Of a DNA stretch of 64,000 nt, positions 59,361 through 64,000 are shown in pieces. Location: assembly GCF_000213655.1 (NCBI RefSeq), contig NC_015554.1, positions 3,472,001 to 3,536,000 of the forward strand, written 5' to 3'. The translations under genes were made by a program, and so were the position numbers. The notes under the pieces were generated by a model. It was given only the letters and a program-made list of their open reading frames with translations, ran no database searches and was not told the DNA's origin. How positions within the stretch are numbered: the first letter of the stretch is position 1; every line of letters begins with the position of its first letter. The DNA comes from Alteromonas naphthalenivorans (lineage in GTDB: Bacteria; Pseudomonadota; Gammaproteobacteria; Enterobacterales; Alteromonadaceae).

Positions 59361-60542
<1,182 letters not shown>

Positions 60543-60562
60543 TTAATTATTTACGTTTTATT

Positions 60563-60586
60563 GAAAGGGCCTTCGGGCCCTTTTTT
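60563..60586 (+). terminator. Rho-independent terminator after fadA
   Basis: AAAGGGCC-TTCG-GGCCC followed by T7, closed by a C(UUCG)G tetraloop. It lies 21 bp after fadA. Confidence 0.9.
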
Positions 60587-60631
60587 GTTGCATGAGGTTC
60601 GTAAAGCACAATACAGCTTGAGCAAACACGA

Positions 60632-61600
60632 CTATTTTAAAACACGGGAAAGCGGGCTAACTACCCCTTGCGCCCCCTGTTGTAATACATGAGTGTAAAT
60701 TTGCGTAGTTTTCACATCAGAATGACCAAGTTGCGTTTGCACAGTACGAATGTCGGCACCCGACTGTAAAAGGTGAGTAGCAAATGAATGTCGTAAGGTA
60801 TGCGGCGTAACCTTCTTTTTAAGCCCACACGCACTTGCGGTTATTCTTATCGCCTTTTGTATGCTTGATTCATCAATATGATGTCGACGCGTTTTTCCAT
60901 TCTCGGGATCAACCGATAAACGCGCAGAAGGAAAAAGATAATGCCATCCAAGTTCTTTAGGCGCATTTTGATATTTAACACGTAAGCGATGGGGCAAATA
61001 TACCCCTTGGTAACTAGGGTTATCTAAATCAGCAATAAGGTAACTTTCAACTACACTTATTTGCCGATTAAGCCCAGGTTTTAGCTCTGATGCTAAAGTA
61101 ACAACACGATGTTTGCCGCCTTTACCATCCCATATTCGAATAGCGTTGTAGTCGAAATCAATGTCTTTTACACGCAACCTCACAGCCTCCATTAAACGTA
61201 ACCCGCTTCCATAAAGTAACGAAATAGGTAACTTTAAATGAGCAGGAAGTTGAGCAAACAGCGCTACCACTTCGTCTTGCGTAAGCACAACAGGTAACTT
61301 GGCTTGCCTGCGACTTGTAACAAAATCAAGACTCAAGGAAAGAGGCTTTTCTAGTATGTCTCGATAAAGAAATGCCAACGCATTGAGTGCGCTGGCTTGA
61401 GTAGCCGGCGCTACATTCTTTTTATTCACTAAGTGAGATAGAAACAACTCTACTTCTTTGTCTCCCATCTCGGCAGGATGCCTAGTATTGTGAAACCGGA
61501 TATAACTAACAATCCAACCACTATAAAGCTGTATAGAGCGCTTAGCGTAACGGCGATTTCGCATATGTTGAACCACCATTTGCATAAACATTGATTTCAT
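60632..61600 (-). CDS. intI: Integron integrase IntI (tyrosine recombinase)
   Basis: Catalyses attI x attC cassette insertion and attC x attC excision. 322 residues, full length. Catalytic residues Arg135 (SGLRLMEAV), Lys160, His267 and Arg270 (HTLRHSF), His293 and Tyr302 (IYTH). Between the second and third motifs lies the IntI-specific patch (about 217-250: ELGWHYLFPSARLSVDPENG, then RRHHIDESSIQKA), which separates IntI from XerC/D and phage integrases. Transcribed away from the cassettes. It looks intact, so the integron should be active. A LexA box upstream suggests SOS control. Confidence 0.95.
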   Translation of the reverse strand: MKSMFMQMVVQHMRNRRYAKRSIQLYSGWIVSYIRFHNTRHPAEMGDKEVELFLSHLVNKKNVAPATQASALNALAFLYRDILEKPLSLSLDFVTSRRQAKLPVVLTQDEVVALFAQLPAHLKLPISLLYGSGLRLMEAVRLRVKDIDFDYNAIRIWDGKGGKHRVVTLASELKPGLNRQISVVESYLIADLDNPSYQGVYLPHRLRVKYQNAPKELGWHYLFPSARLSVDPENGKTRRHHIDESSIQKAIRITASACGLKKKVTPHTLRHSFATHLLQSGADIRTVQTQLGHSDVKTTQIYTHVLQQGAQGVVSPLSRVLK

Positions 61601-61620
61601 TTTTATTTTTCACACTTAAA

Positions 61621-61636
61621 CTGTAATTACATACAG
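61621..61636 (-). promoter_or_regulatory. LexA (SOS) box upstream of intI
   Basis: CTGTAATTACATACAG fits the gammaproteobacterial LexA consensus CTGT-N8-ACAG exactly, with 20 bp between it and the intI ATG. LexA boxes at this position are known to control intI in Vibrio and mobile integrons. Confidence 0.85.
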
Positions 61637-61731
61637 CATTACGATTTTTTAGTACGCCGTAAAATAAAAAGGAAACATTCCGTACTTAAGTACAGTGTTT
61701 TCAGATACAAAGTGTAGGATATTGATATAAG

Positions 61732-61761
61732 TTAACTTACGTGCGAAAGTTAAAATATTAT
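61732..61761 (+). promoter_or_regulatory. Candidate cassette promoter (Pc)
   Basis: TTGATA (61732-61737), 18 bp, then TATTAT (61756-61761), reading towards the cassettes and ending 60 bp before the attI core. It is the best sigma-70 match in the region by eye. Confidence 0.4.
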
Positions 61762-61820
61762 TTGGGTGATATATGGAAACTTTCCGCCTTGCATAAAGGA
61801 TTTCTTCCGTACACTAAATT

Positions 61821-61827
61821 GTTAGGC
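61821..61827 (+). other. attI core site
   Basis: GTTAGGC, the GTTRRRY crossover core immediately before the first cassette. The first cassette ends with the complementary GCCTAAC at 62681, so the insertion point is G/TTAGGC. The rest of attI is the upstream ~150 bp, which holds two GGAAACWTTCCG repeats (61671-61682 and 61775-61786). Confidence 0.85.
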
Positions 61828-61843
61828 AACAGGATAAAGGTAA

Positions 61844-62686
61844 ATGAAATCTCAAGTACTTAGAAAATTTGAGTCAAAGCTAGAAGACATGAATGATCAG
61901 CTTTGCTATTTCCTATTCTCAGACATTGAAGTAAACAATATATTTTCAGAATTAGAACACGATATTTCAGATTCCTATACAACTGAAGTATATCCTGAAA
62001 ATAAGTTTTCAGATCGACTTCATATCAAAATTGAGGCTTTGCCAGCGTTTCGAACCAAAGCCTTCCACTCGTTGGTGAGTATGAGTGTTATTGCCTCAGT
62101 CGAGTATTTGTTAAGTTACATTGAAGAAGTTGAAGGCATTCGCGCCAACATAATGCCGTCAGTTCATGATGAAATAACCGATAAAAAGCCTGAAGAACAG
62201 TTAAATCTCAAGTTGAGACATTGGCTTGGCAAAGATCCAGAAAGCGCCATCATCAAAACAATTGCATACTTGCGGTTACGAAGAAACCATATTGCTCATG
62301 TTCGAGAAGAAATGAGTGATGGTTATCGCTCACTGATAAAGAATGACTCTAATCACCTCAACACATACTGGGCAAAGCAATCAACAAAATTGAATGGCTT
62401 TGACTTCTCCAAAAAAACTTATGATGAATTTGAAGTAAATGATGTATTTGCATTGATAAACCTTTCAAGAGTTTGTATGCGAGAGATTGATTCTTTGGTG
62501 TTGTCTACTATTTCAGAAGAGTCTATTGCAAGCTATGAACTACCTAGGTTTCTTGCAAATAAAAAGCTAAATGGTTTAACTGTCGAAGTTAAATCTCGAA
62601 AGTTTGCCGCGTTTCTACAGCATCAATACGGTAAAAAGATGTCCTGTGCGGATGCTTTGCTCAGAGATCACATGGAAAATGCCTAA
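61844..62686 (+). CDS. Cassette 1 protein with HEPN-like R-x4-H motif
   Basis: 280 residues, mainly helical, soluble. The central helix has LRLRRNHIAHVRE: Arg147-Asn-His-Ile-Ala-His152 is an R-x4-H motif of the HEPN type (often written RN-x3-H), the active site of many RNase toxins and anti-phage proteins. No antitoxin-like partner is encoded in the cassette. The RBS AAAGG precedes ATG 61844, and the stop codon lies inside attC1. The gene is more AT-rich than its core neighbours, as usual for cassettes. HEPN assignment rests on the motif and helical pattern; true function unknown. Confidence 0.85.
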   Translation: MKSQVLRKFESKLEDMNDQLCYFLFSDIEVNNIFSELEHDISDSYTTEVYPENKFSDRLHIKIEALPAFRTKAFHSLVSMSVIASVEYLLSYIEEVEGIRANIMPSVHDEITDKKPEEQLNLKLRHWLGKDPESAIIKTIAYLRLRRNHIAHVREEMSDGYRSLIKNDSNHLNTYWAKQSTKLNGFDFSKKTYDEFEVNDVFALINLSRVCMREIDSLVLSTISEESIASYELPRFLANKKLNGLTVEVKSRKFAAFLQHQYGKKMSCADALLRDHMENA

Positions 62687-62755
62687 CAAGTCAATCAACT
62701 TCGCGCCTACGGCGCCGGACGCAGCGAAGCTGCGCCGGTTATTGAGGCGTTAGAA
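62681..62755 (+). repeat. attC1 recombination site (75 bp)
   Basis: GCCTAAC at the left end and GTTAGAA at the right, with partial inner symmetry (TCAAT on the left, ATTGA on the right) and a GC-rich variable hairpin (CTTCGC...GCGAAG). It does not resemble attC2 and attC3, which share a different internal sequence. Confidence 0.88.
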
Positions 62756-63168
62756 GGCGTCAGCCTAAACTGCGTTTGGCTTTATAAAAATTCCAGTTCA
62801 ACCGCCCTCACCTGCTGTATCAAAATCGCCCTGGCTTTTGGTGGTTTTAACTTCGCCGCATTAACTTCAAAGGTCGCGCAATAGGCGCTTTATCGCCAAG
62901 TTCTTAATTCAATTTAGCAAGCGCCATTGCACTTGGTAGCTCAAATGGCGGCTTGCTCTAGTCAAATCACCAACATTACTCCATTGGCATTTTACTTGTT
63001 TGCTTTAACAATCAATCGTATGCTGGCTTTATTAGTTTTTAGAACTTCCAAAGGTAAAGGCTCTGCTTCTAACAAAGCGCTTAAGCCACTCCCTTCGGTC
63101 GCTGGGACGCCTATACGCGGGGCGGCTTCGCCATTATGCCCCACGCATCTGCGCCCCTTAGCTTAAAG
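62750..63168 (+). other. Cassette 2, no convincing gene; strong hairpins
   Basis: 419 bp unit. The only plus-strand frame of any length (62927-63166, TTG start) runs through attC2 and is not credible. Two hairpins stand out: GGCG-ctttat-CGCC (62884-62897) and a 13-14 bp stem with one bulge, AGCAAGCGCCATT (62916-62928) with AATGGCGGCTTGCT (62944-62957). It may encode a structured RNA or be a non-coding cassette. Confidence 0.6.
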
Positions 63169-63174
63169 TTAGGC
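63067..63174 (+). repeat. attC2 recombination site (108 bp)
   Basis: TTCTAAC at the left end and GTTAGGC at the right. Contains CACTCCCTTCGGTCGCTGGG and GCTTAAAGTTA blocks shared with attC3, so the two belong to one attC family. Confidence 0.9.
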
Positions 63175-63556
63175 GTCATTTACTTACAGCATTAAAATGT
63201 GGGTTCAGTCGTGACATTCCGGCATATAGGTTGTTTCGCTAGGTTGTCTTTACGGCTTGCTTTTTCGGTAGTTTCAGTAGCTTTACACCGCAACGCCAAC
63301 ACTCAACATCACCAGTTTTCTAAACTCGCTCTTTTATCCAGCAATACCGTTAACATCTAGCTTTTCGCACAGGGTTGTTTTATCTTAATTTCAATAATTT
63401 AAATACGCGGTCTAATCGGCTAGTGGTGGCAGCAAAGCTGCGTACTTTCAGTTGTACGCCTAACAAAACGCTGTTGGCACTCCCTTCGGTCGCTGGGACG
63501 CAAACACGGGGCCGCTTCGCGATTATAGCCCCGTGCCTGCGCCCCAAAGCTTAAAG
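63169..63556 (+). other. Cassette 3, no convincing gene
   Basis: 388 bp unit. Plus-strand frames close quickly (the first ATG, at 63197, gives a 5-codon frame), and the minus strand holds only short frames. Probably a non-coding cassette or an RNA-encoding one. No obvious terminator. Confidence 0.6.
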
Positions 63557-63562
63557 TTATAC
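63458..63562 (+). repeat. attC3 recombination site (105 bp)
   Basis: GCCTAAC at the left end and GTTATAC at the right. Shares the CACTCCCTTCGGTCGCTGGG block and the end AAGCTTAAAGTTA with attC2. Confidence 0.9.
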
Positions 63563-63580
63563 ATTCTCAAGGAATAGGTT

Positions 63581-63940
63581 ATTTTAATTAAAGCGATAAA
63601 GAGCCAACTTAACCTGAAACCGTACTTTTATGAAAAGTCGGCGAAAGTTGGTACTACCGGGTGTATTTTGGGAGGAGTCATAGCTTATTTATTGTTTATG
63701 AAAGCTCTACCAATGTTCGGTGTAGACCTTGATATTCCATTAAAGGAATATAGCGATCAAATAGTGTACTCGGTTTTTGCTTTTGGCATTCTGTTACTAT
63801 TTTGCTGTATATATTTACTTTGTTCACTTTGCGCAGCAGTTTACTTTTATCCCATGGTTAAGAACGGCAACCTAGGGGCAGATGATTATTTTAATATTGT
63901 TTTCAAAAGTCAGTACCCGACTCATTGGCAGCGAATGTAG
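63581..63940 (+). CDS. Cassette 4 small membrane protein, no ATG/GTG start
   Basis: Frame open from just after a TAG at 63575. Two hydrophobic segments (about residues 28-43 and 62-88 from the start used here: CILGGVIAYLLFMKAL and SVFAFGILLLFCCIYLLCSLCAAVYF). The upstream part (KPYFYEKSAKVG) reads as natural protein. No ATG or GTG lies in frame before it: ATT 63581, about six bases after AAGGAATA, is the best start, with TTG 63668 as a shorter alternative. Rare ATT starts are unusual and the start is therefore uncertain. Probable inner-membrane protein of unknown function. Confidence 0.55.
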   Translation: MLIKAIKSQLNLKPYFYEKSAKVGTTGCILGGVIAYLLFMKALPMFGVDLDIPLKEYSDQIVYSVFAFGILLLFCCIYLLCSLCAAVYFYPMVKNGNLGADDYFNIVFKSQYPTHWQRM

Positions 63941-63950
63941 GCAACCGAAT

Positions 63951-64000
63951 GTATAACAAAAAAATCAAGTTCGCCCGCTGCGCGGGCTGGGACGCATACA
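63951..64000 (+). repeat. attC4, left part (cut by window edge)
   Basis: Begins GTATAAC, the complement of the GTTATAC that starts cassette 4, and continues with CTGGGACGCATACA, the same GGGACGC block as attC2 and attC3. The right half lies outside the window, so the array continues. Confidence 0.85.

Follow-up and report, generated by a model that had tools for sequence, protein, structure and literature searches.

How many attI sites can a single integron integrase serve? The question is raised by the end of a 64,000-nucleotide stretch of the chromosome of Alteromonas naphthalenivorans (assembly GCF_000213655.1, contig NC_015554.1, positions 3,472,001 to 3,536,000; hereafter the window), where the integron integrase gene intI lies beside fadBA and an array of cassettes begins at the adjoining attI. 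Integrons are usually described as having one integrase and one attI in cis, but this genome has four extra copies of attI that lack intI, and each of them heads an array of its own. Sequence comparison leads us to think it very probable that one IntI acts in trans on several attI platforms, which would derive from integron heads that lost intI.

The original prediction, made from the window, was of an intact chromosomal integron at fadBA, and as to the type of locus it holds: the integrase scores above the cut-off of family TIGR02249, an attI is present, fadA is adjacent, and all four cassettes in the window obey the R-box complement rule. What it did not see is that this array is one of five and not the largest (14 cassettes as against 39 at 1.45 Mb), and that attI occurs fivefold. 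The parts of the locus that matter most are the following.

60632..61600, minus strand: intI, integron integrase; open reading frame (ORF) of 322 amino acids (aa), TIGR02249 at 459.6 bits
61617..61828, plus strand: attI module, the intI-attI intergenic unit; defined from five aligned copies and a model built from these copies
61621..61636, no strand assigned: LexA-like box CTGT-N8-ACAG, recognized by its motif and marking the module's left end
61772..61827, plus strand: conserved attI core, two GGA-N5-TCC elements followed by TAAATTGTTAGGC, with the crossover after the G at 61821

The crossover box of attI reads GTTAGGC (61821-61827), and cassette 1 begins there, at the G/TT crossover. The limits of the core come from the module alignments and a column profile of 43 distal modules, that is, modules at places away from intI. 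The module adjoins intI in the same way in 10 other species whose loci were fetched.

One integrase gene and five attI modules

The genome is a single contig of 4,972,148 bases, and a whole-genome search finds intI to be its sole gene over the TIGR02249 integron integrase cut-off of 265 bits. The assignment to IntI and not to XerC or XerD, which the original prediction had left to be refuted by a phylogeny, is borne out: the protein reaches 144.5 bits with the XerC model and 154.3 bits with the XerD model, far under their own cut-offs of 335 and 330 bits, and in an 18-protein tree 15 IntI cluster (support 98/97) away from three other proteins of this genome, two Xer and a phage-type integrase, although these three are long branches and one of them is only half covered.

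A BLAST search with the intI-attI intergenic sequence finds four further places on the chromosome, at 1.450, 1.945, 1.954 and 1.972 Mb. The five copies align over approximately 210 bp, from the LexA-like box to the crossover; the three near 1.95 Mb are of one type, and the 59-bp core of the copy at 1.45 Mb is 93% identical to the fadA core. A sequence-only model built from these same five copies (R1) recovers them, as expected, at E values of 1e-50 to 1e-34, with the next best match in the genome at 0.14. The module heads an array at all five places. With a finder for attC sites, an iterated profile hidden Markov model (HMM) seeded with the four attC of the window, 74 hits are obtained genome-wide, some partial or weak, in the fadA array (L018) and two other regions (L019-L020 and L021-L022). 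We count 66 cassettes in all: the platform at 1.450 Mb has 39, the one at fadA 14, those at 1.972 and 1.954 Mb 5 each and the one at 1.945 Mb 3. These numbers are rough lower bounds, since odd attC are missed and some long cassettes may be several; three attC were added by hand. The R-box rule, by which the R'' of an attC is complementary to the box at the start of its cassette, is obeyed on direct reading at all four distal copies (GTTAGCT/AGCTAAC, GTTATGC/GCATAAC, GTTATGT/ACATAAC and GTTATGC/GCATAAC).

The arrays at 1.45 and 3.53 Mb, which lie 2.1 Mb apart, have three cassettes in common, two of 419 bp with 100% identity and one of 550 bp with 99.5%. The identity spans the full length of these cassettes, and the matches end within 5 nt of their ends. 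Other pairs are at most 91.2% identical, including those within one array, among the best 60 of the 71 pairs that the 66 cassettes form when at least 75% identity across more than 75% of each member is required. Near-identity that stops at the ends of cassettes is the trace expected from exchange through a shared integrase.

Distal modules across Alteromonas and its family

R1 matches 72 places in 30 of 59 Alteromonas genomes; this genus scan used stricter filters, so that weak copies may be lost. Sorted by their position relative to intI, 23 of the places lie beside it, one lies beside an intI relic (genome G021) and 48 are distal, and most distal hits span nearly all of the approximately 210-bp model. 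A distal hit is present in 29 of the 30 genomes and in 27 among the distal modules examined, which number 44 (40 plus the four of this genome), the short or weak hits G029:C12, G039:C3 and two in G053 being omitted. Upstream of these 44, over distances of up to 2 kb, no intI match is found, whereas all 11 modules in cis have intI there. Judged by upstream proteins, many distal platforms occupy shared loci, one beside cysK in 13 genomes (the neighbor is named as cysK in one member) and others beside a short-chain dehydrogenase/reductase (SDR) gene in 6, a glutathione S-transferase-like gene in 6, a dehydrogenase-like gene in 4 and a LysR gene in 2, besides singletons.

A family scan of 295 genomes drawn from a larger group gives R1 matches in 23 genomes belonging to 5 of 52 genera, g8 and g38 among them. 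We call g8 Cognaticolwellia because 2.7 kb of one of its genomes are 100% identical to part of a Cognaticolwellia aestuarii record. For this genus, a second model (R2) was built from 15 modules of four genomes, and it matched 12 of 17 genomes. The single-contig genome G065, which has one intI, contains 13 places, one beside intI and 12 distal; at one of the 12 (L273) the GTT core is absent. Four other distal modules of G065 (L248-L251) are identical over about their last 125 bp and closer to each other than to those of other species, which suggests recent copying or gene conversion. Elsewhere in Cognaticolwellia, two attI modules lie some 500 bp apart in one array (L275, G277:C3:1655-2583).

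Cassettes differ from the crossover onward

If distal attI are compared between species, conservation ends at the place where cassettes would be inserted. For orthologous distal platforms, 28 sites followed by 250 or more bases of sequence were aligned in 93 interspecies pairs, and in 91 of these the alignment halts 2-15 nt after the core begins. One of the two exceptions halts at 17 nt, and in the other (L184/L198) the first cassette is shared over no fewer than its first 249 bases. At the fadA locus the alignment halts at 2-15 nt in 39 of 45 pairs and at 16-23 nt in the other six. The cysK locus, which lacks intI in its 13 genomes, diverges at the core in 64 of 65 pairs tested. Between A. 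naphthalenivorans and A. lipotrueae, four platforms (one in cis, the others distal) show 91-98% identity as far as the core and differ from the core on. The same boundary is seen in the column profile of the 43 distal modules, whose last core columns are mostly 95-100% conserved through GTTA and then drop to background. Distal arrays thus differ from degraded integrons in that the attI module is conserved and the first cassettes appear to be replaced between species.

The junctions themselves carry the same signal. We asked at each site whether R'' of the first HMM-called attC complements the attI core exactly. The Alteromonas set of 45 non-cis sites (the 44 distal modules and the G021 relic) includes one without a readable core and six without an HMM-called attC, four of these six having fewer than 300 bases of contig left. 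Of the remaining 38, which include the G021 relic site, 27 obey the rule, against a permuted mean of 3.0 (standard deviation 1.65) and a maximum of 10 in 20,000 permutations. In Cognaticolwellia, where 26 distal entries include one without a core and four without an HMM-called attC, and the G208 and G283 loci were excluded, it is obeyed at 15 of 21 (permuted mean 2.0, maximum 9). The Alteromonas sites in cis obey it at 6 of 9 (permuted mean 2.0, maximum 6), a set too small to tell alone.

Origin of the distal modules and fate of the LexA-like box

In Cognaticolwellia, remnants of the intI leader or 5' end, 25-149 bp long, survive at ten of 15 distal modules, and seven of these remnants pass the start codon, extending about 19 to 113 bp into the intI coding sequence. 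In A. naphthalenivorans, the platform at 1.945 Mb (A2c) is preceded by a stretch that resembles the 3' end of the gene before the platform at 1.972 Mb (A2a), with 72.8% identity over 125 bp, and it was probably copied together with this flank. Taken together, these remnants and the flank match suggest that integron heads were duplicated, the spare intI lost and attI kept; where remnants are absent, we infer the same origin.

The box follows the LexA consensus, and its exact form is found in 9 of 11 modules in cis and 19 of 44 distal ones, compared with 2 of 916 background windows. Its retention is patchy, at 7 of 13 modules of the cysK locus and 5 of 6 of the SDR locus. Promoters of intI are described as bearing LexA sites like those of Escherichia coli (PMC3108266), and for Vibrio cholerae the LexA box is reported to govern intI and not the cassette promoter (PMC3948777). 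Slow decay is a possible explanation for boxes kept in the absence of intI.

Weighing the explanations

In the explanation that we favor, the single intI at fadBA would supply IntI, and IntI would join the attC of circular cassettes with its own attI and, in trans, with the four intI-less modules. Every module of approximately 210 bp would gain cassettes at its G/TT and so build its own array, cassettes would be copied or moved among platforms, and the distal modules would be duplicated integron heads whose intI was lost. That the recombination is performed by this genome's IntI, that it acts after local intI loss and that the modules contain a working cassette promoter (Pc) are steps we infer from the DNA; a scan for Pc gave one weak sigma-70-like match where 1.3 are expected by chance, and nothing above chance. 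A more ambitious version would hold that the integron of the Alteromonadaceae is often a distributed machine, in which one SOS-controlled integrase serves as many as twelve attI platforms that are under selection, have control regions of their own, place cassettes in differing chromosomal neighborhoods and exchange them via the integrase. The LexA-like box kept at modules without intI would in that case have a separate role, given what it governs in V. cholerae. We offer this only tentatively and lean slightly against it.

Several points weigh against action in trans. The breakpoint pairs share ancestry and are non-independent, and one genome per species was compared, with no strain-level gain at a distal attI seen. 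In the automated test the R-box rule failed at 11 of 38 Alteromonas and 6 of 21 Cognaticolwellia sites; five of the former (L172, L173, L192 and, in this genome, A1 at 1.45 Mb and A2c at 1.945 Mb) and two of the latter (L268 and L278) were re-read as finder errors, which accounts for these seven misses only. Downstream of one module (L202) there is no attC within 6 kb. Six genomes (G022, G023, G024, G037, G038 and G041) keep distal modules while their own intI is of an approximately 60% identical lineage with an unrelated attI, which implies either use of foreign modules by that IntI or frozen platforms, and G021 contains modules but lacks an intact intI. Separate uptake of one cassette could also account for identical copies on two platforms. 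Less insertion at integrase-less regions is described in PMC4119200, and independently regulated cassettes in PMC4223743; with such regulation, a module promoter would not be needed for expression.

The distal arrays could instead be relics, full integrons that lost intI and have been inert and decaying since. The leader and 5' remnants of intI in Cognaticolwellia and, in G021, the intI pseudogene beside fadA fit this account, and attC arrays without an integrase (CALINs, clusters of attC sites lacking integron integrases) are proposed in PMC9024848 to be degraded integrons. Yet at three platforms (A1, A2a and A2b, at 1.45, 1.972 and 1.954 Mb) intI is missing both here and in A. lipotrueae, and their first cassettes nevertheless differ and break at the crossover. 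The breaks at the cysK locus, the conservation of the core to GTTA and the identical cassettes on two platforms are likewise hard to reconcile with inert remains, which we regard as unlikely. Chromosome rearrangement, also named among the origins of CALINs (PMC8618304), might have split one long array and moved parts of it away, and the likeness of the A2a flank to the stretch in front of A2c makes copying of that platform with its flank probable. Splitting an array leaves attI behind, however, and the distal arrays have their own attI at the head; upstream of 51 fetched modules there is one weak attC hit only (L171, E 0.7), and duplication accounts for the copies but not for the subsequent changes of cassettes. 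We find a split array quite improbable.

Cassettes might also have landed by chance at secondary chromosomal sites of the attG kind, which are reportedly known. Off-target insertion is a mechanism that PMC8618304 names for CALINs, but chance sites would share a short core only, and these sites were found with a model of approximately 210 bp, mostly at near-full coverage, and head arrays at five of five places in this genome; we give it very little credence. Repeated attC and cassettes are hard to assemble, and misjoined contigs could in principle mimic distal arrays. This genome is one contig, however, platform loci with the same host flanks occur in assemblies of 2 to 13 species, and distal modules are found in further assemblies with no more than two contigs (G007, G047, G058 and G065), so an assembly artefact has next to no claim on us.

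The fadA locus and its cassettes

A profile search of the window proteins confirms fadB and fadA upstream of the integron. The adjacency of intI and fadA, which the original prediction proposed to look for in related strains, is found at 10 of 10 other fetched Alteromonas loci with a module beside intI, and in G021 fadA adjoins the intI relic, a pseudogene. In the six Alteromonas genomes with another IntI lineage (loci L216, L217, L218, L219, L225 and L226), 59-60% identical and with an unrelated attI, fadA is adjacent in five, and the sixth contig stops short of fadA. The fadA locus seems to exchange integrons. A. lipotrueae has a second, partial intI covering 204 profile positions (L227, G018:C6:95806-96420).

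The locus does not qualify as a mobile integron carried on a transposon or plasmid: it is chromosomal and sits beside fadA in relatives. The 216-base attI module has no match among 72,556 plasmid records, a 3.6-kb stretch searched against phages yielded five short matches, which fall in integrase genes and in what is here the end of fadA, and an Rfam scan of 60400-64000 gave no match. The remaining features of the locus are these.

59379..60542, plus strand: fadA; NF006510 at 723 bits, TIGR02445 at 689 bits; conserved integron neighbor in relatives
61822..62749, plus strand: cassette 1; starts GTTAGGC, ORF 61844-62686
62681..62755, plus strand: attC of cassette 1; R'' GCCTAAC at 62681, R' GTTAGAA; DNA fold z -3.1
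62750..63168, plus strand: cassette 2; starts GTTAGAA, no conserved ORF
63067..63174, plus strand: attC of cassette 2; R'' TTCTAAC, R' GTTAGGC; HMM E 1e-28, DNA fold z -1.25
63169..63556, plus strand: cassette 3; starts GTTAGGC, no clear ORF, attC called by HMM
63458..63562, plus strand: attC of cassette 3; R'' GCCTAAC, R' GTTATAC; DNA fold z -3.7
63557..64000 and past the window end, plus strand: cassette 4; starts GTTATAC, ORF 63668-63940, R'' GTATAAC at 63951

The 280-aa ORF of cassette 1 has no Pfam, NCBIfam or PADLOC match, and that of cassette 4 no Pfam match. Cassette 2 belongs to a type of 417-421 bp without a conserved reading frame that occurs in 11 copies over three platforms of the genome, one of which, at 1.438 Mb, is 100% identical to it. 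As had been expected, the array leaves the window: the attC of cassette 4 runs beyond its end (HMM-called attC at 3535954-3536056 of the contig, its end read from the next stretch, L018), and the array continues to about 3543827, with 15 HMM-called attC plus attC1, which the HMM missed. Proposed folding of the attC fared unevenly. With the bottom strands folded as DNA and scored as z against shuffles, attC1 and attC3 fold better than shuffled sequences, attC2 is not significant, and the value for attC4 (z 0.29) comes from the fragment outside the window alone and is uninformative.

Other arrays of the genome contain candidates for anti-phage function. Homologues of QatA and QatC (L022 7169-11143; PADLOC) lie in the array stretch at 1.972 Mb, and a type II-A retron reverse transcriptase with its nucleoside deoxyribosyltransferase (NDT) partner (L021 15644-17536; PADLOC) in the array at 1.954 Mb. 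Three attC hits (C1:1429230, 1942053 and 3543827) end in the identical GTTGGTATGAC, and an IS110-family transposase lies at L021 4570-5736; the two may mark an attC-targeting insertion sequence of the IS1111-attC kind. The orientation of the arrays was considered as well and set aside: with dnaA near position 1 all five would oppose the replication fork if the terminus lay opposite, but the GC skew of 1.94-1.98 Mb has the wrong sign for an opposite terminus.

Relation to known integrons and wider meaning

The fadA integron resembles the sedentary chromosomal integrons of the Vibrio type, with an IntI that has a LexA-like box upstream, an attI, cassettes that obey the R-box rule, attC of about 75-110 bp and cassettes of mostly unknown function. 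It is unlike them in its four extra intI-less attI copies in trans; integrons typically have one attI close to the integrase, as stated for IntegronFinder 2.0 (PMC9024848). By definition the four distal arrays would qualify as CALINs, each with at least two attC sites (39, 5, 5 and 3 cassettes) and no integrase nearby. They differ in being headed by a full attI module and in apparently still recruiting cassettes, and the three origins that PMC8618304 lists for CALINs do not include extra attI platforms.

Closest is the three-region "super integron" of Alteromonas (López-Pérez 2014, PMC4119200), in which an integron is accompanied by two further attC regions without an integrase, with expression in RNA sequencing. 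The section of that paper on these regions names no remote attI or action in trans, whereas we find up to 12 distal platforms per genome and a second genus. The delta-attI cassettes of mobile integrons (PMC12901181) also have extra attI-derived sites outside the usual place, but as described there these are attI-type sites within cassettes in the array, whereas here whole modules beside host genes head separate arrays. Integrons of Alteromonas and integrase-less attC arrays are thus known, and attI modules that head remote arrays are apparently new; a search of the open-licence literature turned up no account of multiple attI platforms being served in trans, and a description elsewhere is possible.

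Such platforms could be overlooked because IntegronFinder detects no attI outside class 1, according to its description (PMC9024848). If attI platforms do work in trans, many integrase-less arrays may be living parts of a system, several first-position cassettes would be expressible at once in one cell, and the flow of cassettes within a genome would become measurable between fixed addresses.

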